Source: Paraflavisolibacter caeni
GTDB lineage: Bacteria; Bacteroidota; Bacteroidia; Chitinophagales; Chitinophagaceae
Assembly (NCBI RefSeq): GCF_025628885.1
Contig: NZ_JAOTIF010000028.1
Coordinates: 1 to 64,000 of the forward strand
Length of the DNA: 64,000 bases
Direction: 5' to 3'
Shown here: positions 6,633 to 58,632 of the stretch, piece after piece
How positions within the stretch are numbered: the first letter of the stretch is position 1
Layout of the letters: every line of letters begins with the position of its first letter
The notes under the pieces: generated by a model
Database searches by the model: none
What the model saw: only the letters and a program-made list of their open reading frames with translations
Told to the model about the DNA's origin: nothing
Program-made: the position numbers and the translations under genes

Positions 6633-6680
6633 TGGCTTTTGTATTGTTGCTGTTTGTGCAATTTCGGTTGTACTAAATGG

Positions 6681-9847: not shown

Positions 9848-9949
9848 TCAGGTTCTCATCTTATTTACTATAGTCTGGGCTGTTGGTAATTGCGCCCAAA
9901 CACTAATGGACATAAACAGTCCGATAAGAAAGTTTCAAAAAAGAGGCAT
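9848..9949 (-). pseudogene. Orphan secretion-signal relic
   Basis: In the GH51-GH42 gap the minus strand reads FLIGLFMSISVWAQ followed by LPTAQTIVNKMRT and a stop. That is a textbook signal peptide with its cleavage site and the first mature residues. There is an in-frame TGA just before FLIG and no downstream domain. The mature start resembles that of GH88/GH105-type unsaturated-uronyl hydrolases, but 13 residues are too few to assign a family. It is best read as the stump of a deleted secreted enzyme. The rest of the gap (9668-9988) holds only the hairpin listed separately. Confidence 0.5.
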
Positions 9950-9988
9950 CTTTTTGATACAAATGACAAGCTGTGTTTTTTCATTTTG

Positions 9989-12406
9989 TTATGTTTTAGG
10001 TTTATAAAATGTTTGCAAACGCAGTATTGTCAAAGAATTACCCGGAAATGAAAGGATAATTTTGGTTCCTGAAAATTTCACATTTTCTGTTTTTGGGGAA
10101 ACTTTAGTGGGTTGTTCCATTGTATTTTCATCCAGCGGACTGGCGGAAGTGAGAATAAAAGACTTTCCTCTTCCTGTAAGATTTTCAGCACCCGACAGGT
10201 TAATTTCTGTTTTTACAGCGCCGGCTGCCGCGTTAACAACCTTAAGAATAATATCGCCCGAACGTTCATCATTAGTTGCACTTACGCAAATACTACTGGT
10301 TTTTATACCTGGATTGGATATTTCCTGAATGAGCTTACCATCAAGGTAGCCTTTAGCAGCGCCCCCTTTAACTTCAACTTTAATATCATACCACCGACCA
10401 GCTTCTATACTTCCGGGAACGCTTTGCCTGCTGAACCCATTGTCTAACACAAATTCGGTGTTTTTATTACCGCCGATTTCCCAGCGCATCTGATCATCTT
10501 TATTCTGGTTCCGGAAATAAACCAGGATACCATTATCGCCGGAAATTTTACGTCCTTTGAAGGTAATTGTATAATCGGTCCATGATTTGTCGCCGAAAAA
10601 AACTGAAGTATTAGTACCTGTTGCTGACTGACGAAGTACGCCGTCTTTTACCAACCACTCGCCGCCTGCTTTTTGCCAATCATCAATATTCTTTGTAAAA
10701 TCAGATTGAAACAAAACACGGCCATCAGATGCAAGTACTTTTAAATCTTTAAACTCCGCAGAGTTGTTCGCGGTGCCCAATCCAAGGCCTCCTTTGTTAT
10801 AAAATGTCAACAGAGGCGCTCCTTCTACGTTTACAGGCAGGGAAACAGTACCCTGATTCTGCGCAAACAGTTGCTGCACATAGTAGCCCGGCAAGCCGTA
10901 CCAGCGATAGCTATCAAAATTGATCAGGTTTATTGGCCAAACTTTATGGTTCACATTACAGAACAAGGGTGCATAGGCACTCATCGTAACCACATCTGAG
11001 TTTCGTTCCAGGCCTGTCATCCAGGCAGCCTCGCCAATAGCCCCTCTCAGGTTACCGTTTCCAGTTTTACTTGTTACTGCATATTCGCCAACAAATATTT
11101 TCGGGCCTTTTCTATCGTAATTGTCATACTTGTTTGTGTTCATGATAAACCACTCAGGATTATCATAATAATGTTCATCAATAAGGTCGGGCAGAGGGTC
11201 TTTGGGATATCCTCCCCAATTGTTGACAATAAGTGTAATTTCAGGATACTTTGAGCGGATTGCCTCAGCAATAAGCCTCCATCGTTCGGCGTACTGGTCG
11301 CCGCCGTTTTCGTTTCCTATCTCAATATATTTCATGCTGAACGGTTTTGGATGACCATTCTTAGCACGAATGCTTCCCCAAACAGAGTTCTCTGGTCCAT
11401 TGGCATATTCCATAGCATCTAATGCATCCTGTACCCATTGGCCCATTTGATCCATAGGCACAAAGTCCTTATGCGAAATACCTGCATTTATACAGAACAA
11501 TGGCTCGGCACCAAGGTCTTCGGCCAGTTGCAGATACTCGTGAAAACCTAATCCCCGGCTAGCATTGTAGCCCCAAAAATTCCATGAAGAGGTACGTGTA
11601 TCGATATTCCCAACTGTTTTTTTCCAGTTGTTCATTTGCCTGAAATGGTCTCCCTCTACCCAACAACCGCCCGGGAACCTGAAAACTTTAGGCTGCATGG
11701 CATTGAGGGCCCCCGCCAAGTCCCTCCGGAGCCCATGGCCTTTCCATGTTTGATCAGGTATGAGCGAAACCATATCCATATATAGGCGGCCATTACCATT
11801 AGCTCCTATCTCAATACGGGCTTTGGGGTCGCTGCCTTCCGCAGTTAAATTAACTGTATAATATTTCCATCCCGCATCAAAGCCTTTTACCTCAGCACTG
11901 GCCAGTTCAGTACCGGCAGCACTTACTATACTAACCTTTAGCGGCGCACTGAAGCCTTCCCCGCTACGTGCTGCTAATTTGAACGTATATGAGTTGCCTT
12001 TAACGATACTCATACCCCAGAAACCCCTATTTTCGAGCTTAAATTCTCCCCGAACCTGAATGGAAAGATATTTCCGATTGAAGACGTTTAGCCCTCCCGT
12101 TGGCGGGTACAACGCATCAACATTAATAACCGAAGCGCTGCTGGCTCCGTTCAGATTTATAAACTTCCAGTTTTGAAGCGTATCAGAATCTTCGAACGAA
12201 CGATTCCTGATAAGCTCCGGATAGAGGCCTCCATCGCTTGAATGGTTAATATCTTCGAAAAAAGCCCCGAATAATGTTGATGGGATACGATGTCCCGGCC
12301 TGTTCACTTCAACAGTTATTTTAGCCTTATCTGCTTTGTTTGGTTGAGCGTTTAGAACTGAGCTTAATGTCAATAAAAACAAGCCTGCAATAAGTGGTTT
12401 ATTCAT
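9989..12406 (-). CDS. GH51 alpha-L-arabinofuranosidase with additional binding domains
   Basis: An 805-aa secreted exo-alpha-L-arabinofuranosidase with a signal peptide ending near VLNAQ. The N-terminus (TLFGAFFEDINHSSDGGLY) is characteristic of GH51. A CBM4/9-like beta-sandwich is inserted at about 60-215. EIGNENGG near residue 365 holds the acid/base Glu and KIFVGEYAV near 440 the nucleophile. The protein is longer than a plain GH51 (about 500-660 aa) because a LamG/concanavalin-like domain (about 540-720, starting around GLGLGTANN) is inserted in the C-terminal beta-sandwich, which resumes with SFPGNSLTILRLQTF. It would cleave arabinose from arabinosylated xyloglucan, arabinan or arabinoxylan fragments. 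Its last 30 or so residues recur as a relic at 48793-48905. Confidence 0.93.
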   Translation of the reverse strand: MNKPLIAGLFLLTLSSVLNAQPNKADKAKITVEVNRPGHRIPSTLFGAFFEDINHSSDGGLYPELIRNRSFEDSDTLQNWKFINLNGASSASVINVDALYPPTGGLNVFNRKYLSIQVRGEFKLENRGFWGMSIVKGNSYTFKLAARSGEGFSAPLKVSIVSAAGTELASAEVKGFDAGWKYYTVNLTAEGSDPKARIEIGANGNGRLYMDMVSLIPDQTWKGHGLRRDLAGALNAMQPKVFRFPGGCWVEGDHFRQMNNWKKTVGNIDTRTSSWNFWGYNASRGLGFHEYLQLAEDLGAEPLFCINAGISHKDFVPMDQMGQWVQDALDAMEYANGPENSVWGSIRAKNGHPKPFSMKYIEIGNENGGDQYAERWRLIAEAIRSKYPEITLIVNNWGGYPKDPLPDLIDEHYYDNPEWFIMNTNKYDNYDRKGPKIFVGEYAVTSKTGNGNLRGAIGEAAWMTGLERNSDVVTMSAYAPLFCNVNHKVWPINLINFDSYRWYGLPGYYVQQLFAQNQGTVSLPVNVEGAPLLTFYNKGGLGLGTANNSAEFKDLKVLASDGRVLFQSDFTKNIDDWQKAGGEWLVKDGVLRQSATGTNTSVFFGDKSWTDYTITFKGRKISGDNGILVYFRNQNKDDQMRWEIGGNKNTEFVLDNGFSRQSVPGSIEAGRWYDIKVEVKGGAAKGYLDGKLIQEISNPGIKTSSICVSATNDERSGDIILKVVNAAAGAVKTEINLSGAENLTGRGKSFILTSASPLDENTMEQPTKVSPKTENVKFSGTKIILSFPGNSLTILRLQTFYKPKT

Positions 12407-12442
12407 TTTCCTTTTTATTAATCTTAATGGTTGTTACCTCTT

Positions 12443-12889
12443 TTATATCACAAATTCATGAAAGGACTTATCGCTATGAATAGGGTAGGCAAAATCTTTG
12501 TTTGCCTGCACTTGTTGCACCTGCCATTTCATATTGGATTGGCCCGAAGCCTGCCAGACATCACCGATCAAAATTCCTCTTAGCTTGATTCCGGAATCCG
12601 GTTTTCCTGATTCAAAAACTTCAAGATCATATGGGCCACCTTCTCTTCTTTTGGGAAAGTATAGCATCCAATTTCCCTGCTTGTCGGCTTTTGTAGAAAC
12701 ACGTATCGTTCCAAGGTTTGCTATAACCACTGATCCAGGAGTTGCCTTTCCCCAAACCGGTATTGTTATGCCTCTTTGCAAAACCATACTATCTCTAAAT
12801 ACTTTAGGTAAAGTGATTTTAGCATAACACAAGGACTGGAAAAAGAATATTGCAGAAAATACGACCAATATCTTTTTATTTATTTTCAT
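12443..12889 (-). pseudogene. Truncated sialate O-acetylesterase-type gene (N-terminal fragment)
   Basis: About 148 codons that match, nearly residue for residue, the start of the intact 9-O-acetylesterase-like protein at 42029-43984. Shared features are the signal peptide (NKKIL..FSAIFFFQSL), ITLPKVF, MVLQR, IPVWGKA and GDVWQASGQSNM. After WQVQQVQANKDF the similarity stops and the frame ends, so most of the SGNH hydrolase domain, including the catalytic Asp and His, is missing. The fragment keeps the catalytic Ser motif but cannot be an active esterase. The preferred start is the ATG at 12889. A GH3 C-terminal relic lies just upstream, so this mirrors the intact GH3-acetylesterase pair. Confidence 0.85.
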
Positions 12890-12956
12890 CTTTATTCCCA
12901 TTGCAAAAAAGTATTTATTAGAAGCACAAAAGCTTCAATAGAGAAACTAAAAGCCA

Positions 12957-13150
12957 ATTCTTGGACAGTAATTTTCAGTGTCTGAGACATATTATCTGAA
13001 GAGTTTTCCAATTGCAGGATACAATCTCCCGCCTCAACATTCCATTCCTTTTTTGATTCGTCCTAGAAAGCGAGATCAGCAACTTTCACATTGAACGTTG
13101 CCACACTTTTAGTTCTCTCGAAGTATTTCCTGAGCTTACAGAAATTACAA
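12957..13150 (-). pseudogene. GH3 C-terminal relic
   Basis: The minus strand encodes TKSVATFNVKVADLAF, an in-frame TAG, then DESKKEWNVEAGD and QTLKITVQ. This is a near copy of the last 55-60 residues of the GH3 enzyme at 44021-46207 (fibronectin III-like C-terminal domain). The DNA similarity is visible directly, for example TTGGACAGTAATTTTCAGTG in both places. The piece is about 70 bp upstream of the truncated acetylesterase, as in the intact pair, where the gap between the two start-stop boundaries is shorter. The rest of GH3 is missing. Confidence 0.8.
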
Positions 13151-13304
13151 CCGAATGTTCGTTTGCAAAGGGCTTGGCTCGAACATTCAAAGAGATCTTT
13201 CCACTTCCCTTTATTGTGGAAGCAGTCTTCTTGCAGGATGCCATGACCAAAACTACCAGCAGGATAATTATATATTGTCTTTGAGCCTTTACGTATCTAT
13301 TTAT
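13130..13304 (-). pseudogene. Orphan lipoprotein N-terminus
   Basis: The minus strand reads QRQYIIILLVVLVMASCKK, a type II (lipoprotein) signal peptide with lipobox-like MASC, followed by TASTIKGSGKISLNV and about 30 more residues. There is no ATG in frame (the likely position is now ATA), and the frame runs into the GH3 relic and stops at 13086-13088. The parent protein is not recognised. It appears to be a fragment joined to the GH3 relic by deletion. Confidence 0.5.
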
Positions 13305-13325
13305 GAGCGTTTATTCATTGTTAAA

Positions 13326-13366
13326 AACCTGCAGGTGCATCAACTTTCGTTGAACACCCGCAGGTT
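13326..13366 (-). terminator. Rho-independent terminator after the SusE-like gene
   Basis: The stem AACCTGCAGGTG pairs with CACCCGCAGGTT (one mismatch), and the minus strand continues into TTTTT. It sits about 100 bp after the SusE-like lipoprotein stop and would separate GH31-SusC-SusD-SusE from the relics and GH51. Confidence 0.75.
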
Positions 13367-13468
13367 GACCCATTGCTTCTATGAGAGCCTTTTATTCATT
13401 AAATTAAACCGATTCTGGTCTCATGTAATGGAATACCTCCAATCTTCTTTTCCCCATTCTTTGCTTCA

Positions 13469-14278
13469 CTATTCAGAGTAGTAGTTATAAATCAACCATG
13501 TTCCATCATTTCTTACCACTGTTAATTGCAGTTTGTTATCTGTAAGTGTTTTGATACGAATATCCTTTTTCCAATTGGCTACCTGAGGGCCTTGCCCCTT
13601 ACTATTGTCGTGAAGTACTTCAGCGCCAATAGTGGTCAGGGTTTTAGCTTTGAGGTCAATCGCAACTTTACCTGTTCCTGATAATGCCGGAAACATTAAA
13701 TTATTCGATTTAAAATTGGGGTTTCCAATCAGGTCAAACGTCATGGTTCCATAATCACCTTTCTCAACTACCCAATCGGCCCAACCTGCATCCCATTGCC
13801 AACTGTAATTGGCGCCGGCAAAAGATACCGGGCCATTAAAATATTTACTTTTTCCATCAGCGTCCACATCAAGATGCCATGTTTTTGATTTTCCTAATCC
13901 CCCGGTTAGGTTCACCCACAAAGGATCGCTCACCGTCTTTTCATCAATCGTAGTGATTTTTACTATTACTGAATCGGCATATACAAGGCCACCACGGCTT
14001 TCCACAGCATATTTAATGGTATAATCACCTGGAAAAGGAATGTTTATAGTGTCCGTTAACTTGATGGAATTACCGGAAGGCGATACCCAATAGGGCGTAG
14101 CATTTGGAGTAAGGCTTTTGAGAACGATGTCATTGGGGTTCTTAGCGCTTGGGGTGACGGTAAATTTCAATGCACCTTTATCTAATGCGGGGCCGAGTTC
14201 CATCTTTTCGGGGCTGCAACCGGAAAACATGGTGATTAACCCGCAAACTGCTATTATAGAATGAATTAACTTTTTCAT
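13469..14278 (-). CDS. SusE/SusF-position surface glycan-binding lipoprotein
   Basis: About 269 aa. The ATG at 14278 gives a proper lipoprotein signal (KKLIHSIIAVCGLITMFSGC, lipobox FSGC); the longer frame from 14314 only adds a non-signal extension. A PKD-like beta-sandwich (about residues 30-115, with PGDYTIKYAVESRGG) precedes a beta-rich C-terminal half (about 125-269) with many Trp residues (WQWDAGWADWVVEKGDYG). That half resembles domains placed after SusD in other plant-glycan loci. It lies 30 bp after the SusD gene. The role as an outer-surface binding protein working with the SusCD transporter is inferred from signal, order and composition. No catalytic motif is seen. Confidence 0.75.
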   Translation of the reverse strand: MKKLIHSIIAVCGLITMFSGCSPEKMELGPALDKGALKFTVTPSAKNPNDIVLKSLTPNATPYWVSPSGNSIKLTDTINIPFPGDYTIKYAVESRGGLVYADSVIVKITTIDEKTVSDPLWVNLTGGLGKSKTWHLDVDADGKSKYFNGPVSFAGANYSWQWDAGWADWVVEKGDYGTMTFDLIGNPNFKSNNLMFPALSGTGKVAIDLKAKTLTTIGAEVLHDNSKGQGPQVANWKKDIRIKTLTDNKLQLTVVRNDGTWLIYNYYSE

Positions 14279-14307
14279 GTATACTAATTTTTGATGAAAT
14301 AAAACAA

Positions 14308-15897
14308 CTACCATCCTGCATTTTGTTTCAACACACCATTCGATAAAGTGATTTGCGAATAAGGTATCTGAGACAAACCTTTGGTTTCGGTGATCTTTGC
14401 CGCAGTAATAGTTTTGGTTGCATTCACGCCACCATTTTGAAGCGTAACGGATTCAGCAATGGTGGATGCAGCAGTGCTCACGCCCTGGCGCAGCAAATCC
14501 CAGTAACGAATGCCTTCTCCAAAAAACTCGAGTTTTCTTTCATTCATAATATTTGCCTGGTTTACCGGTATTTGAACGAAGTTGGAACCGAATGCTCTCT
14601 GGCGTACTGCATCAAAATATTGCTGTGCATTTGGAGAACCTAATTCAGCAGCCATCAACAACACATCTGCATAGCGGATAGAAACATAATCCTCATACTG
14701 GCTGATCATGAAACTTACACCACCCATTTTTTCGGCAAGGCTTGTACCTGAGGCATCAGCCATTGGAGTGTATTTCTTCATGTAATAACCGGTGTATTCT
14801 CTCTGGTCATCTTTCTTTTTAAAATCAAGATTTTCATCTACAATAGAAATGATAGAAGCACTCCTTCTTGTATCGTTTGCATCATAAGCGTTCCAAAGTT
14901 TGGGATTCACGGTTCCGCCTCCCCATCCTAAGCCGTAAGGAGCGATCGCCTGGCTCCGGATGCCAAACATCACGAGCCATTGATTGCCATCAACATTGCC
15001 GTTCCAGTCGCTAGTGTACGTGTATTTGATAGCAAAAACAGTTTCTTTGTTATCTTCTCCTACATAATTAGCAGGTGATGCCGCAGGCCACAGATTTGCA
15101 AAATTGCTAACCAGGCCAAAACCTCCATTTGATATGACATCTTCCAAATATGTGAGGGCTTGCTCCTTAGTAACAGCTCCTACTAAATCAGGTTTATTAT
15201 AGTATCCGGTGTAATAAAGGAACACACGGCCAATCATTGATTCAGCAGCCCATTTGGTTATCCTTCCACGAGTGGCAGAAGCTTGTGCGCCATAACTTGT
15301 GGATGGAAGATTAGACGCAGCAAATTTTAAATCCTGCGCAATGAGGCTGTAAACGCTGTCAGGACTTGCCTGCGGAACATTCTCCGTTGAAGGTTTGGTG
15401 AGCAATGGAATATTGCCCCACAATCTTACCATATCAAAATAGCAATAAGCACGAATGAACTTTGCTTCTGATTCATAAATTTTACGCATTGCTTCCTGTC
15501 CCTTCCAGTCTACCTGGTCAAGACGGCTCAACAACAAATTAGTACGGTAGATGGTATTGTAATAAGACGCCCAGTTATCCTTATATAGGTCTTGATCGAC
15601 TGGCGAACGAAGCTTGTCAAATTCATCTATCATGGAATAGCCAAATCCATCGGCATTGCCTGTGGCACCAAATGCATTATCTGACATTACTTCTGAAGTG
15701 ACAGGGAAGGCAATTCCGCCATAAAGACGTTGCAATCCATCATAACAACCTACCAATGCTTTGTAGGCTTCGTTAGGCGTTTGATAAAAATTCTGTTCCG
15801 AAACAGTTGACACGTCCTCCGTCTCGAGGAAGCTTTTTTTACAGGCAGCCAGCGACAACAGGGCGATGACAGGGATATATAATTTTAATTTTTTCAT
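14308..15897 (-). CDS. SusD/RagB-like starch-binding-type outer membrane lipoprotein
   Basis: A 529-aa SusD-family lipoprotein. The signal peptide has lipobox LAAC at about residue 19 followed by KKSFLETEDVS, the usual SusD start. The all-helical TPR core contains EAKFIRAYCYFDMVRLWG (about 145), and the C-terminal SusD signature includes NERKLEFFGEGIRYWDLLRQG (about 455-475). It would cap the SusC barrel at 16024-19158 and deliver oligosaccharides to it. It is separated from SusC by a 126-bp gap containing an inverted repeat. The ligand cannot be read from sequence; neighbours suggest xyloglucan-type oligosaccharides. Confidence 0.93.
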   Translation of the reverse strand: MKKLKLYIPVIALLSLAACKKSFLETEDVSTVSEQNFYQTPNEAYKALVGCYDGLQRLYGGIAFPVTSEVMSDNAFGATGNADGFGYSMIDEFDKLRSPVDQDLYKDNWASYYNTIYRTNLLLSRLDQVDWKGQEAMRKIYESEAKFIRAYCYFDMVRLWGNIPLLTKPSTENVPQASPDSVYSLIAQDLKFAASNLPSTSYGAQASATRGRITKWAAESMIGRVFLYYTGYYNKPDLVGAVTKEQALTYLEDVISNGGFGLVSNFANLWPAASPANYVGEDNKETVFAIKYTYTSDWNGNVDGNQWLVMFGIRSQAIAPYGLGWGGGTVNPKLWNAYDANDTRRSASIISIVDENLDFKKKDDQREYTGYYMKKYTPMADASGTSLAEKMGGVSFMISQYEDYVSIRYADVLLMAAELGSPNAQQYFDAVRQRAFGSNFVQIPVNQANIMNERKLEFFGEGIRYWDLLRQGVSTAASTIAESVTLQNGGVNATKTITAAKITETKGLSQIPYSQITLSNGVLKQNAGW

Positions 15898-15939
15898 CTG
15901 AATAACTTTTTATTTTATTATTTGCCAGATGGAACTCCG

Positions 15940-15990
15940 CATGATAAATTTTCATGACACGCTGTGTTTAATAATGAAAATTTTATCGTG
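15940..15990 (-). repeat. Inverted repeat in the SusC-SusD gap
   Basis: CATGATAAATTTTCAT and ATGAAAATTTTATCGTG form an AT-rich stem of about 15 bp with one bulge and one mismatch. There is no T-run after it. It may stabilise an mRNA end or partly terminate transcription between SusC and SusD, but its function is unknown. Confidence 0.45.
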
Positions 15991-16023
15991 CTTCGTTTCA
16001 TGATTCTCATTTTCAAGTTTTGA

Positions 16024-19000
16024 TTAAAAACGAATGTTTGCACCTACCATCAGGGTTCTTGGTCTTGGATAGTAACCTAAGTCTACGCCTGATGAATATT
16101 CCTCATTGTGTCCAATTTCGGGATCCATTCCATTGTATTTGGTAAATGTGAAAGCATTCAATACAGAAGCGTACAGTCTTACCTTGCTGAGGTAATTTTT
16201 CTTTGCCATCCCCGCAAAATCATAACCAAGCGTAATGGTGCTGATGCGCAGGTAGCTGCCATCATAAATGTACAGGTCAGAGAACTGTGCCCAGTTGGTA
16301 CCTTCTGCTGTTACTCTTGGAATTTTGTTTGAAGTTCCCTCACCTGTCCAACGATTTAGGATTTCTGAGGAGTAATTACCAAGACCACCAGGCCCCCTCC
16401 ATGATTGAACCAATTGATTACCGGCAACACCTGAAGCCTGTACCCCGAAATCAAAGCCTTTGTAGTCAAGTGATACATTGAAACCGAAAATAAAATTAGG
16501 ATTGGGGTCACCGATCATTGTTCTGTCATCATTATTAATAGCTCCGTCTCCATTCAAATCAACATAACGAAGATCACCGGCTTTTGCATCAGGCTGAATG
16601 AGCCTGCCCGTTTTGTCAACATAAGAATTGACTTCGGCTTGTGTTTGGAAAACACCCGCTGTTTTTAAACCCCAGAAATAACCAACAGGGAAGCCGCTTT
16701 CCGCCCGGTAAAATTCAAGAGAATTGGCGTACAAAACGTTGCTATTGCCGTGAATGATGTGGTCCTTCGTAGGAATATTTCCAATCTTGTTCTTGTTATA
16801 GGAGCCATTGGCACCAATAGAATAATTGAAAAACTTGCCGATCGTGTTGTGATAATTCAGAGCCAGCTCTACGCCGGTATTCTTCACATCACCGCCATTG
16901 ATGTACATTTCCTTAGCACCGGTGGTGGCAAGAACGGGAATCTTAACCAGCCAGTTCTTTGTTGTTTTAATGTAATAATCGAAACTCACATTCAGTCTCT
17001 TCATCACGGTTGCATCAAAGCCAATGTTGGCTTGCTCTGATGTTTCCCATTTGATTGCAGGGTTTCCGATGGTTTCATCCGGCCTGGCACCCTGCACATT
17101 TGTAGTTGGTCCCTCACCAGATCCAAAACCATAGGAAGCCAGGTCAAATTTGATAAGCGACAAATATCTATTTCCAGGAATATTTTGATTACCTACCTGG
17201 CCCCAGCTTGCACGCAGTTTAAAGAAATCCAGGCCTTTGATATTTTGCATGAAGTTCTCTCTTGAAGCAATCCATCCTGCAGATACCGAAGGGAAGTAAC
17301 CCCAGCGATGACCTTGTGCAAAATTTGATGAACCATCGGCGCGGAACGTAGCATTCAACAAATATTTTTCCTGGAAGTTGTACTGCAATCTTCCGAAATA
17401 AGAATTCAAAGCGAATTCGAAAGGGCCGCCACTGTTACCAATGTGCGCAGATCCTGTGGCCCTGTTGTTGGCAACATTCAGATAGGCATGGTCCAGGTCA
17501 AGAAGACGCAAATCCCAATTTTCACCCCTCATACCTGAACCTTTTGTTTTCAACGATGAACTACCCGCCATTACACTGAAGCCGTGGTTCATTGCCACTT
17601 TAAAATCATAACTCAGTGTATTTTCAAATTGAAGGGTTGTACTGGTACCCATTGATTGATAAACTGTAGAGGTATCAACTTTTGCAAATTTTGAAAGATG
17701 GTATGGAGGAGTAAATCCGCGGCTTTGGTTGCTACTATAATTCAGGCCGAGGCTTGAACGAAGTTTCAGACCTTTGATTGGTTCAACTTGTAAATAAGCA
17801 TCTCCAAACAAACCCTGGTTACTGTTCCTTCCATTAGAACCATAGTACATAGCTGCATAAGGATTGGACGTACCGTCATCCCACTGGGCAGGACCTACCT
17901 GTCCGGGGTTCCATCGAAGACTGTCTGACCTGAAGAAATTGCCGTATGCATCATACATAGGCAGGAATGGAGATGTAGAAAAAGCAGAACGTAACGTGTT
18001 ATTGTACTGACCTCCGGTTTGAATGCCATGACTGTTTACATTATTAAACGTAAGATGCTCTCCAATCTTGATAACGTTCTGGTATAAACTGTGCTCAGAG
18101 TTCATTTTGAACGTATAGCGCTCATAATAGGAATTATCGGAACCACCAACAATTCCACCCTGGCTGGTATAGCCTAAAGATGTTGAATAAGTGGAACCGG
18201 CACTTCCGCCTGTTGCACCCACTACATAATTTTGGGTGGGAACGTTCTTCACGAACATTTGGTCAAGCCAGTTGGTATTTACAGGCAGGTTGTTGATTTC
18301 ATCATTAGTGAAGTAAGGAGCGTTACCCGAATTAACGGCCTGCTCATTCATGATGATGGCATACTCCTTTGCATTTAATAACTGCGCTTTTCTGGCAACA
18401 TTTTGAATACCGTAGTAAGCATCTAAAGTGATCTGTGCTTTTTGGTTCTGTCTTCCTGATCTTGTTGTAACCAGAATAACACCATTAGCTGCCCGTGAAC
18501 CATAAATAGCTGCGGATGCAGCATCTTTTAAAACATCGATGGATTCAATGTCAGCAGGATTGATCGATTTGATATCAATCCCCTGCACTCCATCAACAAT
18601 AAATAAGGGTCCAAAATCACCAATGGTACCTTTACCACGGATGATCACATTAAATCCATCTCCGGGTTGGCCTGAAGAAGAAGTGATCTGCACACCAGGA
18701 GCCTGTCCCTGCAAAGCCTGCAAAGCATTGGTTGTGCTTTGCTTTTGAAGGGCTTCACCTTTTACCTGCAGGTTGGCGCCGGTCACTAATTTTTTCTTTT
18801 GAACGCCATAGCCGATCACCACCACTTCGTCCATCCGGTTTTCGGCTTCCTGTAATTGAATGCTCACGGCACCAGCATTGCCTACTATTACCTCCCGGCT
18901 CTGGTAGCCTACCGAAGTGATCACCAACACATCACCCGGGGCGGCATCAATGGTAAAGCGGCCGGTTTCATCTGCAATGGTGGTTTTATTGGTCCCCTTA

Positions 19001-19158
19001 ACCGTTACAGTAGCACCAGCCATGGATGTAGCTGTTTTTTGGGAAGTGATCCTACCCGTTACCTTGGGGGTTTGTGCTAAGGCAGAATAGCCTAGCAAAA
19101 AGACGGAAATCATCGAACAAAGCAGTAATTGCAGTGTTTTCTTTTTTGATCTTTTCAT
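16024..19158 (-). CDS. SusC/RagA-type TonB-dependent outer membrane transporter
   Basis: About 1044 aa from the ATG at 19158, which gives a signal peptide (KKKTLQLLLCSMISVFLLGY..ALAQ). The frame to 19182 adds only a short unlikely leader. A carboxypeptidase-D-regulatory-like domain (about residues 35-115, TGRITSQKTATSMAGATV) is followed by the SusC motif DEVVVIGYGVQKKKLVTGA, the plug (APGVQITSSSGQPGDG, LFIVDGVQG) and a long barrel ending GANIRF. It imports oligosaccharides with SusD, powered by TonB. It lies 57 bp after the GH31 stop, consistent with one operon started by the promoter at 22103-22170. Confidence 0.95.
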   Translation of the reverse strand: MKRSKKKTLQLLLCSMISVFLLGYSALAQTPKVTGRITSQKTATSMAGATVTVKGTNKTTIADETGRFTIDAAPGDVLVITSVGYQSREVIVGNAGAVSIQLQEAENRMDEVVVIGYGVQKKKLVTGANLQVKGEALQKQSTTNALQALQGQAPGVQITSSSGQPGDGFNVIIRGKGTIGDFGPLFIVDGVQGIDIKSINPADIESIDVLKDAASAAIYGSRAANGVILVTTRSGRQNQKAQITLDAYYGIQNVARKAQLLNAKEYAIIMNEQAVNSGNAPYFTNDEINNLPVNTNWLDQMFVKNVPTQNYVVGATGGSAGSTYSTSLGYTSQGGIVGGSDNSYYERYTFKMNSEHSLYQNVIKIGEHLTFNNVNSHGIQTGGQYNNTLRSAFSTSPFLPMYDAYGNFFRSDSLRWNPGQVGPAQWDDGTSNPYAAMYYGSNGRNSNQGLFGDAYLQVEPIKGLKLRSSLGLNYSSNQSRGFTPPYHLSKFAKVDTSTVYQSMGTSTTLQFENTLSYDFKVAMNHGFSVMAGSSSLKTKGSGMRGENWDLRLLDLDHAYLNVANNRATGSAHIGNSGGPFEFALNSYFGRLQYNFQEKYLLNATFRADGSSNFAQGHRWGYFPSVSAGWIASRENFMQNIKGLDFFKLRASWGQVGNQNIPGNRYLSLIKFDLASYGFGSGEGPTTNVQGARPDETIGNPAIKWETSEQANIGFDATVMKRLNVSFDYYIKTTKNWLVKIPVLATTGAKEMYINGGDVKNTGVELALNYHNTIGKFFNYSIGANGSYNKNKIGNIPTKDHIIHGNSNVLYANSLEFYRAESGFPVGYFWGLKTAGVFQTQAEVNSYVDKTGRLIQPDAKAGDLRYVDLNGDGAINNDDRTMIGDPNPNFIFGFNVSLDYKGFDFGVQASGVAGNQLVQSWRGPGGLGNYSSEILNRWTGEGTSNKIPRVTAEGTNWAQFSDLYIYDGSYLRISTITLGYDFAGMAKKNYLSKVRLYASVLNAFTFTKYNGMDPEIGHNEEYSSGVDLGYYPRPRTLMVGANIRF

Positions 19159-19214
19159 ATAGAAGCGTTTGGGTTTAAACAATGAAAAAATAGAGGCTTA
19201 GATAAAATAGAGAT

Positions 19215-22070
19215 TTACATTTTTATGGATAGCTTTTTGCCTTCATAAAGGATTTCCTGATCGGGCTTTCTCTCCAGGTCCAAAGCTTTAGCAGAAGCTG
19301 GAGTGACCCATACGATGCGGAAGGTTCTTTTGGCAAGCATGCTTGTATATGAACCTTTTCGGTCACCAATTGTTAGCGATTTTGTGCTTTCATTATATTG
19401 GAAGGGAATGGTTGAATACTGTCCTTTCTCATAATCGTAGGTAGTACCTTGGTCCTCATACAATTGGAAAGAGGCATCTTTTCCTGTGTATACATACAGA
19501 GTGATCGTGTCAGCAGGTTTTTCAGATGTGTATTGAAGTTCTGGACCAAAAGGAACAATGGAACCTTCTTTTACGTATACAGGCATACGTTCATACGGTG
19601 CTTCAGCCTTTATTTTCTGGCCACCTTGGTTCCATTTTCCGGTATACAGGTCGTACCATCCTTGGCCTTTGGGCAGGTACAATTCCCTCGTGCGTTGTTG
19701 ATAATTATAAACCGGATTGATCAATAAGGACGGTCCAAACATGTATTGGTCCCCAATGTTCAAAACGGCTGTGTCTTTGGCAAAATCCATCACCAGCCCC
19801 CGCATGATGGTATAGTTGTTATGATAGGTGCTGCCTGCCAAAGAATAGATATAAGGCATCAGACGGTAGCGGAGCTTATCGTAATACAGCATGCTCTGGT
19901 AGGCAGTATGCCCTTCGGGAGCGATGTTGTAGATCTCCCTGTAGGGGAATTGTCCATGCACGCGGAAGAGCGGCACAAAAGCCCCGAATTGGTACCAACG
20001 GGTATTGAGCTCCCGCCATTCTTCAAGCGCTTCTTCATTCGGTTTTTCAAAGCGGCTCTCCACCACAAAGCCCCCCACATCCATGGTCCAGTAAGGAATG
20101 CCTGACAGGGAGAAGTTGATCCCTGCGGGTATTTGGGCCTTCATGTCCTGCCAACGGGCACCAATGTCCCCACTCCAGATGGCAGCGGCATAACGCTGAG
20201 AGCCAGCAAATCCTGAACGCGTCAAGAGAAAAACTCTTTTGTTGGAATCTACAGAACGCTGACCTTCATAAATGCCTTTGGCATTTTGCAGCGGGTAGGC
20301 ATTCAGGTACTCGGCTGCCGCCCCCAGGGCCACTCCGGTCATTTGTTCTTTTCTTTTCTGGGGTGATACATTGGAGAGGATGTCTGGCTCACTGGCATCC
20401 ATCCACCACGCATCAATGCCTTTCTTATAAATTTTATTATAGATCAGGTTCCAAAATCCTTTCCGGGCCTCTTCATTGAAGGCATCATAGAAAGTAGATA
20501 CATACCCTTTACCGATCCAGTCCCTTTGCCGGTCAGCTACATTCCTTTTATACAGCCAGCCTTTTTGGTTCATTTCCTTATAAGCTGGTATGCCTTCATA
20601 AAACTTTGGCCATACCGAGATCATCAACTTGGTATTATATTGATCATGCACTACTTTGATCATACTGTCAGGACTAGAGAAGCGTGTTGGATCAAATTCC
20701 TGGCTGCCCCAGTCATTTTCCTTCCAATAGCTCCAGTCCAGCACGATATTATCAAGTGGGATCTTCCTCTTCCTGAACTCAGCTACTGTTTCTAATATTT
20801 CCTGTTGTGTTTTATAGCGCTCCCTGCTTTGCCAGAAGCCTAATGCCCATTTTGGAACAATAGGTGCTTTACCGGTTAGGAACCGGTAACCACTGATCAC
20901 CTCATCCATATTATTACCATAAATGAAATAATAATCCAGTTGTTTTCCAGCTTCTGAAGAAAAAGAGAAAGTATTTTGTTCTGGAGTTGGTAAGGGTTCA
21001 AGCCACTTTAAGGAAAGGTAAGATTCACCCCCTTCTGGGATCCATTCAATTTTAATGTGAAGTTTTTGACCCTTCTGCATGGTCACATCAGCCAAAGCGG
21101 GTGCAGGGTTCCATGCCTTCCTCCAGCGGTCGATCAGTAGTTTCCCGCCAACCCAAACTTTAATATACCCGCCATAAGTAAACCTGAATTTATGGTTGCC
21201 GGTGAACTCGCTGGCAATACTGCCTTCCCAGGTTACTACTCCATTTGCAGGATTGAATTCAGCAGGCAGGTATTGCTTCGACTCATTGAGGTACTCCATG
21301 CTAATGGAAGCCTCAGCTCTTTGCAGTACAGCATCAGCAGGTTTGTTCCTGTCATTACTGTATGTAGCTGTCAGCCAGCCTTCCAGTCCCTCTTTTGAAA
21401 ACAACCTCAGGGAAGAAAGCGGATGATACTCACGGGTATCCCCTGCTTTGGTAAGGGAATAATTATCCCAAAGAATGCCATAATTTTTATTGGAAATAAG
21501 GAAAGGAACGCCAACTTCCGTATTATTCTGAAATAAAAAAACCTGTTGGCCTTTATAATTATATACATCATCCTGGTGCTGACCAAGCCCGTAATGAGCA
21601 TCATCAGCAGTTGTTTGAAAAGTCTGCTTTATATGATAAGACTGTTGGCCTTCAAATACCGCAGGCTGAAAATTTCGTCCGGACGGCTGCTTTTCACTCA
21701 GTATTTTATTGCCGCCCGGGTCACGGAATGAAACGGCGCCTGTTTTCAGGTCGACAATAGCGGTAAGGTTTATTGTTTTTAGTATGAGGTTTTCTTTGGA
21801 AGGAATTACATTCCAGGAAAGATCAGGTCTTTTGCTGTAAACAGTAACCAGACTTTGGGTGGCAGCAATCTCTTTTCCCGGAGCCGCAATTACTCTTATT
21901 ATATTATCAGACACTACTTCAAGTTTAACGGCCTGGGAAGTGCCTGTAAAAACCGGATCGGTAAAAACAATAATCCCGTCTTTGGTCTGAATATATGATG
22001 GAGGCTCTGCCAATAAGACATTAAAAACAAGGGTACACAGAATGCTAAGCAATCGCAATCGCATTTTCAT
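19215..22070 (-). CDS. GH31 alpha-xylosidase-type enzyme with inserted PA14 domain
   Basis: A 951-aa secreted GH31 enzyme with a signal peptide ending near VLLAEPP. The N-terminal beta-sandwich is interrupted by a PA14 domain at about residues 228-358, where GNHKFRFTYGGYIKVWVGG and LLIDRW are typical. The catalytic nucleophile is the Asp in WWMDASEPD (about 557) and the acid/base the Asp in WSGDIGARW (about 634). The PA14-in-GH31 layout and length are those of xyloglucan-active alpha-xylosidases, which remove the non-reducing-end xylose from xylogluco-oligosaccharides. It is the first gene of the GH31-SusC-SusD-SusE operon. Its 5' end and promoter are duplicated as a relic at 48940-49160. Alpha-glucosidase activity is the main alternative. 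Confidence 0.92.
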   Translation of the reverse strand: MKMRLRLLSILCTLVFNVLLAEPPSYIQTKDGIIVFTDPVFTGTSQAVKLEVVSDNIIRVIAAPGKEIAATQSLVTVYSKRPDLSWNVIPSKENLILKTINLTAIVDLKTGAVSFRDPGGNKILSEKQPSGRNFQPAVFEGQQSYHIKQTFQTTADDAHYGLGQHQDDVYNYKGQQVFLFQNNTEVGVPFLISNKNYGILWDNYSLTKAGDTREYHPLSSLRLFSKEGLEGWLTATYSNDRNKPADAVLQRAEASISMEYLNESKQYLPAEFNPANGVVTWEGSIASEFTGNHKFRFTYGGYIKVWVGGKLLIDRWRKAWNPAPALADVTMQKGQKLHIKIEWIPEGGESYLSLKWLEPLPTPEQNTFSFSSEAGKQLDYYFIYGNNMDEVISGYRFLTGKAPIVPKWALGFWQSRERYKTQQEILETVAEFRKRKIPLDNIVLDWSYWKENDWGSQEFDPTRFSSPDSMIKVVHDQYNTKLMISVWPKFYEGIPAYKEMNQKGWLYKRNVADRQRDWIGKGYVSTFYDAFNEEARKGFWNLIYNKIYKKGIDAWWMDASEPDILSNVSPQKRKEQMTGVALGAAAEYLNAYPLQNAKGIYEGQRSVDSNKRVFLLTRSGFAGSQRYAAAIWSGDIGARWQDMKAQIPAGINFSLSGIPYWTMDVGGFVVESRFEKPNEEALEEWRELNTRWYQFGAFVPLFRVHGQFPYREIYNIAPEGHTAYQSMLYYDKLRYRLMPYIYSLAGSTYHNNYTIMRGLVMDFAKDTAVLNIGDQYMFGPSLLINPVYNYQQRTRELYLPKGQGWYDLYTGKWNQGGQKIKAEAPYERMPVYVKEGSIVPFGPELQYTSEKPADTITLYVYTGKDASFQLYEDQGTTYDYEKGQYSTIPFQYNESTKSLTIGDRKGSYTSMLAKRTFRIVWVTPASAKALDLERKPDQEILYEGKKLSIKM

Positions 22071-22102
22071 TTAAAGCAATTTTTTCAGTTGAAATAATAC
22101 AG

Positions 22103-22170
22103 TAAAACTAGTTCGGTGCTGTTTAAAGCAGGGTATCCAGATGTTGCAGACTAGGGCATAAAATGTTGCA
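22103..22170 (-). promoter_or_regulatory. Promoter with paired direct repeats upstream of GH31
   Basis: On the minus strand, two copies of TGCAACAT lie 22 bp apart (22163-22170 and 22141-22148), about two helical turns, upstream of TAGTTTTA (22103-22110). The latter fits the Bacteroidota -7 consensus TAnnTTTG except the last base and lies 33 bp before the GH31 ATG. No good -33 element is seen, which fits an activator-dependent promoter. The same module recurs near 49094-49160 and, less perfectly, at 46242-46312. The activator is not in the window. Confidence 0.55.
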
Positions 22171-22190
22171 AACAACTGGTTTTCAATACC

Positions 22191-46207: not shown

Positions 46208-46241
46208 TATTTGTTTATTTTTTGTAGTTGTATTGAAGCTG

Positions 46242-46312
46242 TAAAACTATCCTGACGCAGATTGATTGAGGTGCATCATTTGTAAATGATTGAGGTATGA
46301 AATGTTTCAACC
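46242..46312 (-). promoter_or_regulatory. Promoter upstream of GH3, resembling the GH31 promoter
   Basis: The minus-strand TAGTTTTA (46242-46249) lies 35 bp before the GH3 ATG. Sixty bases separate its shared GTAAAAC core from AATGTTTCAA on the plus strand (46301-46310), exactly the spacing between the corresponding elements of the GH31 promoter. The far element matches the GH31 one at about 15 of 19 bases (GGTATGAAATGTTTCAACC). The near repeat copy is not well conserved. Confidence 0.4.
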
Positions 46313-46355
46313 GGCTTGATTTTAAATAATTTTAACACAAGCAGAAGGCCTATAT

Positions 46356-46462: not shown

Positions 46463-48790
46463 CTAGTTCACTTTAATCACCTTAAATGATTTCAACCAGT
46501 TCACCCCATGTACCTGAACTACATACATACCTGGTTTCAGGGAAGTTCCCATAGTCATGAAGTTTGAAACTGCTGAATGCTCTATAGTTTCCACCTGCTT
46601 GCCCATCATGTCAGAAATTGTAATGCGTAATACATCATCAGGGTTGCCAACTTTAAGACTAAAACTGGATGAGAATGGATTTGGATATAACTCTATCTGA
46701 GATTTTGGTTCGCTGGATGATGTAATGTCAGTTGTCTTTTGAATATTTGCCAAAGTGCTTTGGGTATTTGCCAAAGTGTTTATCGTCCAAACCTGATTAT
46801 TATTACTGCTTTTTTTCCATTGACCTAAATCTGAACCATCGGCTGTTCTACCCAGACCATCTATATATTGCCCGGTAGCACGGTTTTTAAACTTCATGTC
46901 AGTGCCTGTAGGTACCTGCAACCATTCCTGGTTCGGACTAGTGCTGGCAACTTTTTGAACTACAACTGCACCATTGTTTGTACTGCCATTGCCATCAAGG
47001 TATAAGCTTGAAGCACGGTTTTTAATTTTCACATAACTTCCTACAGACTCTATAACCCATTGCTGTGCCTCACTGCCGCTGTTACTCCACTGACCTGCGT
47101 TAGATCCGTCAGTGTTTCTGGACATACCGTCAATCAGCAAACCGGTAGCCTTGTTAGTAATTGTAACATAGGTAACCGGGGCCGGGGTTGTTGTGGCTTT
47201 AACCAGCAGAATGGCCGTAGTAGAGAGTGCCGGTACAGTTAGGGTGAGTGAATTTGAATTTACCGCTACTGTGCTTTCTTTCAGTGCATTTTGCGTATGC
47301 GATACAAAGGTCTCTGTTGACGGCAATGATGACAACTGCAATGTTTTGTAATTGCCATTGGCAACATTGAAGTTGCTTAAATTGATGGTAGCCGTGCGGG
47401 AAGCGCTCATGTCACGATTCACCAGTATCACCGTTAAAGAGTCGGCATTCTCATTTATGGAGGAGTATGCAGATACCGTATTCTCCAAAGAAGAAGTACT
47501 TAAAACACTATATTTTTTTGCATTCCTGCTAAAGAGGTGCAATGTTTCCCACATGCCGGTAGCCCAGTTCCATGGTGAAAATAATTCAACGCCATTGTTT
47601 GCAAATGTACCCAGATGCGAAGCATAGATAACCGATTCAAGATTTGGATTGCTACTTGACATGGTACCCCATTCACTTACGCCCGCTGTTATGCCATGGT
47701 TTGCACCAAAATGTTCGTTCAACCAGCCGTCGATGCGCTTGAAAATATATTGTTTGGTAAGGGAGGGATCCCATCCGCCGGTACTTGTTCTAATACCGTT
47801 TGAACCAGGATAATCATAGGTCGTATCATAGTAAATCCGGTGTCCTTGCAGTGCCGCAGCATCATCATTATTATACCAGGGGTAATTGTGAATATCTAAT
47901 ACATCTACCAGTTTGATACCGGTTGCCTTATACTCATCGCCAAGGCGTTTGATGAAATACTCAATCCAGGAATAATACCGGCCATTGATGTATATACTTT
48001 CATTTGACCATTTGTACCACTGCCATTCAGAGGTGGCAACAGGTCCACAAAGTTTGATGCCAGGATATAGAGCTATCGCTTTTTTCGCTAATTCTATGTA
48101 GCGATCCATGAATGCAGAGGCAGAGATCAACGTTGGCATAGCATAATCATGCGTACCATTCCATATATCTACCTCGTTATCCATATTCCAGTATACGAAC
48201 TGGTTTTTGTTGAGCCCTAAGCCGCCGGCTCCAAACCAATGGTTCAGGATTCCTACGGAAGAATCGGCTGGCCATGGCTGTGTAAACAAAGTCATGTCTC
48301 CATCCACCAAAGCCTTAGTGCCGCCGTTTGGATCAGGTGTACCGCCGCCGGCTAAATTCTGACCGACACCGGACCAATACTGCGATTGGTTGTATGCCCA
48401 GTCGTTGAAGTTGTTGTTGGTGTTGGATGCTACTCTGCCTAATAACTGAAAAGCAAACATGCCCTGCATGTCTGGAAAATTGGAAGCAACATTTTGTGCC
48501 ATGGCATCCCAGTCAACACTGTAAACATTGTTGTACCAATCGGGATGTACCGTAATTTTTTTACGCCAGTTGTAACCTGTTGCATTATTGCCACCGTTCA
48601 TCCTGGTAAAACGCAAACCTGCGTCTTTATAAAATTGTAACGGCTTGTCAAACCAATCGTTCTTGCCATATATGTATGGTGAAATCAAACGCTTGTTCTG
48701 CGTTGCATTTACTGAAATATTTACGTTCTGTGCAAAGGCTGTATAAAGCGTCATATGGCACAACAACAGCAAGATGATTTTTTTAATCAT
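46463..48790 (-). CDS. GH44 endo-glucanase/xyloglucanase with ricin-type lectin and type IX secretion tail
   Basis: A 775-aa modular enzyme with a signal peptide ending YTAFAQ. The GH44 barrel (about residues 25-500) has RLISPYIYGKNDWFD, FVYWNMDNEVDIWNG (about 203, acid/base Glu) and ITAGVSEWGTMS (about 373, nucleophile). Known GH44 enzymes cut beta-1,4-glucan and xyloglucan backbones. A beta-trefoil ricin-like lectin (about 535-685) has three repeats with QQW, NQEW and NQVW motifs. The last 75 residues are a type A T9SS sorting domain (IELYPNPFSSSFSLKV..SFKVIKVN), so it is exported by type IX secretion and probably anchored or released. It sits alone between a captured GH31-type promoter and a strong terminator. 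Its ATG overlaps the stop of the GH51 relic. Confidence 0.88.
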   Translation of the reverse strand: MIKKIILLLLCHMTLYTAFAQNVNISVNATQNKRLISPYIYGKNDWFDKPLQFYKDAGLRFTRMNGGNNATGYNWRKKITVHPDWYNNVYSVDWDAMAQNVASNFPDMQGMFAFQLLGRVASNTNNNFNDWAYNQSQYWSGVGQNLAGGGTPDPNGGTKALVDGDMTLFTQPWPADSSVGILNHWFGAGGLGLNKNQFVYWNMDNEVDIWNGTHDYAMPTLISASAFMDRYIELAKKAIALYPGIKLCGPVATSEWQWYKWSNESIYINGRYYSWIEYFIKRLGDEYKATGIKLVDVLDIHNYPWYNNDDAAALQGHRIYYDTTYDYPGSNGIRTSTGGWDPSLTKQYIFKRIDGWLNEHFGANHGITAGVSEWGTMSSSNPNLESVIYASHLGTFANNGVELFSPWNWATGMWETLHLFSRNAKKYSVLSTSSLENTVSAYSSINENADSLTVILVNRDMSASRTATINLSNFNVANGNYKTLQLSSLPSTETFVSHTQNALKESTVAVNSNSLTLTVPALSTTAILLVKATTTPAPVTYVTITNKATGLLIDGMSRNTDGSNAGQWSNSGSEAQQWVIESVGSYVKIKNRASSLYLDGNGSTNNGAVVVQKVASTSPNQEWLQVPTGTDMKFKNRATGQYIDGLGRTADGSDLGQWKKSSNNNQVWTINTLANTQSTLANIQKTTDITSSSEPKSQIELYPNPFSSSFSLKVGNPDDVLRITISDMMGKQVETIEHSAVSNFMTMGTSLKPGMYVVQVHGVNWLKSFKVIKVN

Positions 48791-48792
48791 TT

Positions 48793-48905
48793 CTTTTGTT
48801 TTTTTTAAATGTTTGCAATCGGATTATAGTTATTAAATCTCCTGGAAATGAGTGGCCAATTACATTTCCCGGAAATTTCAAAACTCCTGTTTTAGGTAGG
48901 ATCGT
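48793..48905 (-). pseudogene. Relic of the GH51 C-terminus
   Basis: The minus strand reads LPKTGVLKFPGNVIGHSFPG then DLITIIRLQTFKKNK, matching the end of GH51 at 9989-12406 (SPKTENVKFSGTKIILSFPG, NSLTILRLQTFYKPK). Its TAA overlaps the GH44 start in ATGATTAA, so translation of GH44 could be coupled to any read-through of this piece. Confidence 0.82.
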
Positions 48906-48939
48906 AAGGCAGGTGTGCGCAAAGAACACATCATGTAAA

Positions 48940-49062
48940 AACCGGATCGCTAAAAAAAACAATCCTGTCTTTTGTCTGGAGGCAGTATGGAGGAGGTGCT
49001 GCCCGTAAGGCATTAAAAACGGAGGTACACAAGAAGTGAAGCAGGTACAGTTGGGTTTTCAT
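48940..49062 (-). pseudogene. Relic of the GH31 N-terminus
   Basis: From an ATG at 49062 the frame encodes about 40 residues ending SDPVFT-stop, including FNALRAAPPPYCLQTKDRIV. It matches the GH31 start at 22070 (LCTLVFNVLLAEPPSYIQTK, IVFTDPVFTG). After the stop the sequence passes into the GH51 relic with about 35 bp of unmatched DNA between. Confidence 0.85.
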
Positions 49063-49093
49063 ATGTAGCAATCTTTCGGTTAAAATAATGCAG

Positions 49094-49160
49094 TAAAGCT
49101 ATTCCTGTATTGTTTGGAATAAGGGAGTCAAATGTTGCAGACTATGGCATAAAATGTTGC
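49094..49160 (-). promoter_or_regulatory. GH31-type promoter copy upstream of GH44
   Basis: A near copy of the GH31 promoter: two TGCAACAT-type repeats 22 bp apart (plus strand ATGTTGCAGACTATGGCAT, then AAAATGTTGCAAAG) and a minus-strand TAGCTTTA at 49094-49101. The 60-bp spacing is preserved, and similarity runs from about 49063 to 49182. It is the only promoter-like sequence seen before GH44. Confidence 0.55.
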
Positions 49161-49243
49161 AAAGAGGTGGTTGTCAATAGGGCATAACACTTATATACAG
49201 CTGTAAAATGTTATATGATAACCTATTTTAAGGGTATTGTTGT

Positions 49244-49278
49244 TACTGTTTCAGTGGCCGTTGGCAACTGAAACAGTA
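49244..49278 (-). terminator. Hairpin after the GH42 at 49290
   Basis: TACTGTTTCAGT and ACTGAAACAGTA pair perfectly over 12 bp around an 11-base loop, 12 bp past the GH42 stop. There is no T-run, so it may be a transcript-end stabiliser or a weak terminator. Confidence 0.55.
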
Positions 49279-49289
49279 TGTATTACGGA

Positions 49290-58351: not shown

Positions 58352-58632
58352 TTTAATTCTCCCAGTCAATTTTAGAATTCGTGATCAAACGAAAATCATC
58401 GCATGTGAATAATCCGTTTTCTCTGGTTCCGTAAAATAATATGTTACTGTTTTAGGGATCTACGGCCAGGCATTTTGCGGATCCTGCGCCAAAGCTTCCA
58501 CGCCAATAAATCCATTTTCCGACTCGTTAATCCACACCAGCAGCTGAACCCATTTATTGTTCGCGGCATCCCAGCGGTAAGCCCCGCCTACATCCGTGCA
58601 GCAATACCGATCGCCGGATGTTCGCCCCGGCC
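58352..58632 (-). pseudogene. Decayed GH74 xyloglucanase (N-terminal relic)
   Basis: The minus strand encodes TDVGGAYRWDAANNKWVQLL then GVEALAQDPQN, the hallmark first blade of GH74 endo-xyloglucanases. It jumps, after a deletion and frame change, to LAVDP-stop-NSNILFYGTRENGL, the hallmark of a later GH74 segment. Stops and the missing intervening 100 or so residues make it non-functional, and the remaining 500-plus residues are gone. GH74 enzymes are largely xyloglucan-specific, so the relic supports a xyloglucan history for this locus. Confidence 0.8.

Follow-up and report, generated by a model that had tools for sequence, protein, structure and literature searches.

The stretch of Paraflavisolibacter caeni DNA analysed here, referred to as the window, comprises bases 1-64000 of the 82,104-base contig C21 of a 7.0-Mb genome and carries on its minus strand most of a probable xyloglucan utilization locus. 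Pfam assignments give the order HTCS gene, SusC2-SusD2-SGBP-B-GH5, many glycoside hydrolases and then GH31-SusC1-SusD1-SusE1-GH51. The family numbers are taken from Pfam names except for the glycoside hydrolase at the operon end, which we take to be a GH51 enzyme. The prediction of xyloglucan as substrate rests on gene content, as the Pfam domains SusD, SGBP_B_XBD, Cellulase, GH31, GH3, GH2, GH42 and alpha-fucosidase were all found, bringing together a SusC/SusD pair, a xyloglucan-binding surface protein, GH5 and enzymes for side chains. The HTCS gene (C21:66996-71108; L006:6996-11108), about 18 kb from the element described below, encodes Reg_prop, Y_Y_Y, HisKA, HATPase, Response_reg and HTH_18 domains (Pfam), i.e., the sensor, kinase, receiver and AraC-type HTH are all encoded in the locus. 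Within the series of glycoside hydrolases lies a GH44 gene, whose product is probably a xyloglucan-cutting enzyme. The GH2 gene at 5091-7556 (minus strand) is represented by two open reading frames in the same frame with a stop codon between them.

Directly upstream of GH44, remains of both ends of the GH31-to-GH51 operon are joined head to tail, and their identity was confirmed by alignment. The initial annotation had described here a near copy of the GH31 promoter and gene start followed by the end of GH51. This holds, and only its boundaries had to be adjusted. The promoter copy (P2) with the GH31 5' end, 49179-48934 on the minus strand, aligns to 22188-21945 (promoter P1 and GH31 start) with 191 identities in 240 aligned bases, 49 mismatches and 10 gap positions; the alignment score is 191, while 200 dinucleotide shuffles averaged 22.4 and never exceeded 30. 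The similarity begins at 49179 instead of 49182, and the GH31 stub is 43 codons long instead of 40 (reading frame 49062-48934, TGA at 48933-48931). The stub scores 31.2 bits in a GH31 protein profile, reversed controls reaching at most 4.2. The GH51 tail is recognisable from 48902 in protein and from 48896 in DNA, where 48896-48770 aligns to the GH51 3' end (10096-9967, both on the minus strand) with 93 identities, 32 mismatches and 7 gap positions at a score of 64, against a shuffle maximum of 37; it spans 36 codons, one more than had been counted. Chance similarity of either part to GH31 or GH51 is thus ruled out by scores far above those of shuffled sequences. The two stubs lie as close together as had been stated (within about 35 bp), with an unrelated filler of about 28-34 nt between them; a 37-nt piece of this junction, reaching to 48897, has no match in the contig above the level of shuffled letters. 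As noted before, the stop codon of the tail overlaps the GH44 ATG, as ATGATTAA at 48790-48783, and in the intact operon the same two ends, the GH31 start at 22070 and the GH51 end at 9989, stand 12.1 kb apart in the same order and orientation (Table 1).

Table 1. Relic upstream of GH44, its intact counterpart and related features; positions refer to the window unless a contig is named, and the E values of the GH31 stub and GH51 tail refer to a search of one short ORF and the intergenic DNA of the contig.
Feature	Position	Strand	Match or basis
P2, copy of GH31 promoter and operator	49063..49179	-	Versus P1 up to the ATG: 92 identities, 24 mismatches, 3 gap positions
Operator-like direct repeat TGCAACAT-N14-TGCAACAT	49132..49161	-	No mismatch, likewise at P1
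GH31 stub, 43 codons and TGA	48931..49062	-	GH31 residues 1-42, 62.8%, E 1e-12
Junction filler	48903..48930	-	Between GH31 stub and GH51 tail
GH51 tail, stop overlapping GH44 ATG	48783..48902	-	GH51 residues 769-804 of 805, 55.6%, E 2e-7
GH44 gene with ricin-type lectin domains and secretion tail	46463..48790	-	PF12891 (E 3.9e-21), PF14200, PF18962
Strong hairpin between GH42 and P2, possible terminator without T run	49244..49278	-	Folding
Intact operon GH31-SusC1-SusD1-SusE1-GH51	9989..22070	-	Pfam
P1 promoter and GH31 start, intact counterpart of the relic	21945..22188	-	Alignment to relic
P3, third promoter copy, outside the window	C21:66849-66973		Relic DNA search of own genome
Promoter copy upstream of GH2 gene	Own genome, contig C2:73559-73649	-	Stricter operator pattern
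Weak promoter copy upstream of GH3	46224..46320	-	E 0.0034; GH3 starts 120 bases after model position 1
Sister relic: GH3 tail (residues 679-728), then SASA-esterase head (residues 5-135)	12506..13113	-	80% and 67% identity to intact genes
GH31 internal piece (residues 208-248), outside the window	C21:74382-74684 (L006 14382-14684)	-	68%; 0/500 shuffles
Broken second DUF5916 copy, several ORFs	22497-25107	-	70-84% identical to intact copy 2296-4938
Start of GH5-lectin-like gene of Niastella relatives	9854-9988	-	44% over 45 residues, E 5e-7
52-residue remnant between GH43 and GH5	58469-58624	-	Matches part of a protein of relatives (about 900-1100 residues) with up to 87-88% identity

Both parts of the relic point to the operon in the window as their nearest source. 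The stub is closest to the window's own GH31, with a score of 138.5 compared with 100.5 for the best of ten other GH31 starts. A second GH31 on contig C2 was rejected as its origin (score 17.5 versus 138.5, the C2 sequence beginning one base before the ATG). In a whole-genome search the GH51-tail peptide matched only itself and the window's own GH51 (E 4.3e-6) and gave no match to the two other GH51-like genes of the genome. The relic DNA searched against its own genome returned itself, P1 (22188-21945), P3, the GH51 end and the inverted repeat at 49244-49278. Among 18 genomes of the same genus, its own included, the only match outside the own genome was one of 32 bp (G009); in the family, 43 of 294 genomes gave matches at E up to 0.01, many of them short and weak.

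Common to P1, P2 and P3 is a block built around two TGCAACAT sites with a 22-bp period, and in all three a second conserved block around TAGTTTTAC follows the repeat block. Allowing up to two mismatches, the repeat occurs at 12 sites in the genome (reversed control 2), four of them in C21; P1 and P2 are the two perfect sites, and the P3 repeat has 2 mismatches. A stricter pattern, designed from promoter copies already seen, finds at up to one mismatch four sites in the genome, namely P1, P2, P3 and one on C2, and 13 sites in 7 of the 294 family genomes, the reversed pattern finding none. Nearly identical promoters thus stand upstream of non-homologous genes of one genome, and several copies per genome are also found in relatives. 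The GH2 gene with the C2 copy follows a second full-length GH31 gene, which is 82% identical. Direct repeats with a period of about two helix turns that are shared by several operons resemble the motifs predicted for HTCS regulators in Bacteroides, which are direct repeats of 21 bp on average (Ravcheev et al., 2013, PMC3878776). As in those polysaccharide loci, an AraC-type HTCS gene lies here beside SusC/SusD and several operons would belong to one regulon; the account given there concerns motifs predicted in Bacteroides and, in the parts bearing on operators, does not mention gene remnants carried by promoters. From this architecture and from their position, the P2 repeats are predicted to be an operator of the HTCS. 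Of the 47 promoter copies collected from this locus and from relatives (see below), 14, among them P3, lie immediately behind the end of an HTCS gene. A remnant of an HTCS 3' end was searched for upstream of further copies: at P1 the match was equalled by 1 of 500 shuffles and is suggestive only, while none was detected upstream of P2 (235/500 shuffles as good) or upstream of the promoter before the MFS gene (339/500). The co-regulation of GH44 with the GH31 operon that had been proposed would be wider, extending to the whole HTCS regulon.

Between P2 and the GH42 gene upstream lies a strong hairpin: the fold of 49220-49295 has -21.4 kcal/mol and a z of -4.67, with 0/200 shuffles as good. As this hairpin follows the upstream gene, although without a T run, GH44 probably depends on P2. 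A dead P2, with GH44 depending on transcription from elsewhere that, for example, continues out of GH42 or begins at another promoter, is in our view improbable. It would be in keeping with two Chitinophaga genomes in which GH44 follows GH39 at about 35-92 bp with no P-type promoter between them, and with the fact that the hairpin is no canonical terminator and is absent from the output of a terminator scan that requires a T run. Against it stand the hairpin's strength, the perfect operator, the retention in P2 of the conserved blocks of a 41-copy promoter alignment and the chance level of sigma-70-like sites, the only one on the gene's strand lying at 49254-49225 (2 found in the region versus 3.3 expected). 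Likewise, the one terminator-like site within the leader (48965-48944) compares with 0.9 expected. The initial proposal that a promoter was left in front of GH44 is strengthened by the perfect operator and by the hairpin that separates P2 from the upstream gene.

The roughly 300-nt leader itself contains overlapping stop/start pairs running from 49062 to the GH44 ATG, with ORFs of 43, 18 and 32 codons. Ribosomes might start at the GH31 ATG and pass through these ORFs to GH44, the stubs being kept as a translational relay or leader peptide; we consider this the remotest of the alternatives. Its attraction lies in the ORF chain, in a dN/dS of 0.45 between stub and GH31 and in the conservation of the stub relative to P1 (98 of 125 aligned bases), which is similar to that of the promoter (92 of 116). 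Shuffling the leader, however, also produced such a chain in 58 of 1000 cases (37 under tighter limits), and a chain to a real start codon is absent from all 16 other leaders tested, two of which lack an ATG; in the G228 leader a single step leads to a computed start, which is no start codon. For these two reasons the relay was given little weight. Moreover, the frame of the P3 stub is not conserved, and a dN/dS of 0.45 is what one constrained and one unconstrained branch would give together. Because the stub is about as conserved as the promoter, conservation is also no separate sign of selection keeping the promoter.

The contig holds several other collapsed duplicates. The sister relic, in which a GH3 tail is followed by a SASA-esterase head, sits between SusE1 and GH51 inside the P1 operon, whereas the intact GH3 and SASA genes lie downstream of GH44. 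The GH31 internal piece stands behind a weak promoter copy (E 8e-4) and in front of an MFS gene, and the start of a GH5-lectin-like gene has been left between GH51 and a GH42 gene (7637-9667). GH39 is present twice with 85% identity. A duplication followed by complementary loss would explain the relics of the contig together, one copy having kept GH31-SusC1-...-GH51 and the other GH44 and GH3-SASA. Further upstream of the broken DUF5916 copy, a piece of the N-terminal part of DUF5916 was observed.

Promoter copies recur in xyloglucan loci of relatives, and many carry GH31 starts. A promoter model built from P1-P3 gave 47 copies at E up to 0.01 in selected regions of relatives and in the own locus, which are no census since these regions were picked for promoter, GH44 or GH51 matches. 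The register is fixed, in that ten intact GH31 genes behind the promoter start 106-118 bases past model position 1. The arrangement HTCS-P-GH31-SusC2 is intact in G156, G223, G165 and G267, while in three genomes a GH31 start alone stands upstream of SusC2 (Niastella vici 84.0 bits, G022 43.0, G195 21.1; reversed sequences at most 4.2). A DNA profile from the ten GH31 starts was scored on the 100 bases from the promoter's ATG, using 25 non-GH31 promoters with an ATG at the usual place and 681 control gene starts, of which 403 were signal-peptide-like; 6 of 41 promoters at E up to 1e-5 had no ATG in the tested range. The similarity is specific: 13 of the 25 exceeded all 681 controls (control maximum 2.9 bits), with 28.5 bits for P2 and 3.1 for the weakest, although these 13 are spread over ten genomes and some are not independent of one another, and the profile includes GH31 genes from some genomes also tested. 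The other 12, P3 among them, do not exceed the controls. P3 has no GH31 match in the protein profile either, and as 6 of 500 shuffles align as well to GH31 as its leader does, a P3 stub was not counted.

In relatives, GH31-start DNA lies behind promoters of SusC, GH2, GH3, GH5 and GH95. At the GH31 position of G101 and G229, the ATG begins a frame that continues into SusC1 and GH3; of four such cases the G101 SusC1 (14.9) and the G229 GH3 (16.9) score above the controls and two do not. An in-frame start was likewise seen for a GH3-type gene in G267 (24.1 bits). The regulon seems to have grown as new genes received copies of operator, promoter and GH31 start, the GH31 part then collapsing. We tentatively suggest, with more doubt than confidence, that it spreads in this family as a start-bearing cassette of operator, promoter, GH31 start codon and signal-peptide codons that is copied upstream of unrelated genes, ending either as a short upstream ORF (SusC, GH2, GH44) or as an in-frame chimeric start (G267 GH3, G229 GH3, G101 SusC1). 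If this is true, such a cassette would donate regulation and sometimes a secretion signal together. A promoter tree was weakly resolved, with 6 of 38 inner branches well supported, and clustering of promoters by genome was not detected in it (30 changes; shuffles averaged 31.4, and 41 of 200 had as few). It places two G022 promoters in one clade (100/100). This pair (C41:498054-498286 and C10:21095-21327) appears to be a recent duplicate that is sharply bounded, its ends lying near those of the P2/P1 match.

How the relic arose at GH44 is best judged from its two ends together. We favour, with moderate confidence, the reading that 48783-49179 is what an internal deletion left of a P1-operon duplicate specific to this lineage, and that P2, as part of an HTCS-run xyloglucan regulon, now drives GH44. 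As a sequence of steps, the operon from promoter and GH31 to GH51 would have been duplicated in this lineage, and the internal deletion would have left the promoter, 43 GH31 codons and 36 GH51 codons directly upstream of GH44. The HTCS would sense xyloglucan fragments, presumably bind the TGCAACAT repeats and activate P1, P2, P3 and the weaker copies together. Transcription of GH44 would then begin at P2, and both stubs would lie in its leader. In the wider picture, new genes would acquire copies of operator, promoter and GH31 start, after which the GH31 part decays. Since GH31 stubs behind the promoter recur in the family, promoter and stub alone are no proof of a whole-operon copy, and at GH44 it is only the GH51 tail that speaks for one. 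The original explanation by an internally deleted operon duplicate is partly supported; in its favour are the nearest match to the own GH31, the tail that matches the own GH51 only and the sister collapses.

An unlikely but more serious alternative is that recombination or gene conversion copied no more than about 240 bp, operator through GH31 codon 42-43, to a site upstream of GH44 that already held a decaying GH51, so that a second complete operon never existed there. In G022, the HTCS-P-stub-SusC2 site and P-GH31 on another contig are identical in 211 of 232 bases, and because this piece has sharp ends near those of the P2/P1 match, a short cassette is favoured in that genome and possible at GH44; the GH31-start DNA behind other genes of relatives points the same way. 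Yet at GH44 it requires a separate GH51 duplicate that decayed exactly upstream of the gene, whereas the GH31 and GH51 relics lie in operon order and orientation as the two ends of one operon. A similar relic of two genes (GH3 tail-SASA head) is also present in the contig. The ends also vary, the N. vici stub being about twice as long. The presence of the GH51 tail favours the collapse of an operon-sized copy at GH44, and together with the sister relics it tips the balance to the larger copy. A relative with a full second GH31-to-GH51 operon upstream of GH44, which the initial annotation had suggested looking for, was not found: no uncollapsed second operon stands at GH44 in the GH44-bearing genomes (5 of 294 at E up to 1e-60, own included) or in loci L051-L056.

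Xyloglucan loci of Bacteroidota contain, as here, a SusC/SusD-like pair and GH5, GH31, GH3, GH95, MFS and HTCS genes in varying order (PMC11892949). The present locus differs in its large size, two SusC/SusD pairs, GH44 and collapsed duplicates, GH44 being unmentioned in that text. No description of collapsed gene starts behind HTCS promoters, or of HTCS promoter copies carrying a GH31 start, was found in searches of the open-licence literature by title and abstract. Promoter propagation in prokaryotes, in which one promoter is copied upstream of different genes of a genome, was reportedly described by Matus-Garcia et al. in 2012; here, in contrast, the copied piece includes coding DNA of the first gene, keeps a fixed register and is found across many species of one family. 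Gene decay after tandem duplication leaves internal deletions, stubs and broken copies, and the present case differs from such ordinary decay in that the surviving regulatory end was placed upstream of another gene. How bacterial regulons recruit genes is usually inferred from short motifs alone, whereas recruited promoters that still carry a piece of their source gene make the direction of spread readable. They provide a family-wide set of cases for asking if promoters travel by themselves or as parts of larger duplications with a later collapse, and for GH44 they predict that it answers to the xyloglucan HTCS.

Close relatives of GH44 in named genomes belong to Chitinophaga, Niastella and Dyadobacter. 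Among the five family genomes the only other full-length close GH44 is that of G267 (77%), the rest being partial at about 50%; it lies inside the HTCS-P-GH31-SusC2 operon, in which no GH51 was detected. In N. vici, one GH44 follows GH5 and a second stands alone behind its own promoter copy (E 1.2e-7), its leader showing no detectable similarity to the relic beyond the promoter (98/300 shuffles as good). Niastella belongs to Chitinophagaceae; Dyadobacter lies outside this family, so that gene transfer of GH44 is possible. Dyadobacter sp. CY261 (L055 10001-14542) carries two tandem GH44 genes with segments 66-77% identical in an HTCS-SusC2-SusD2 context.
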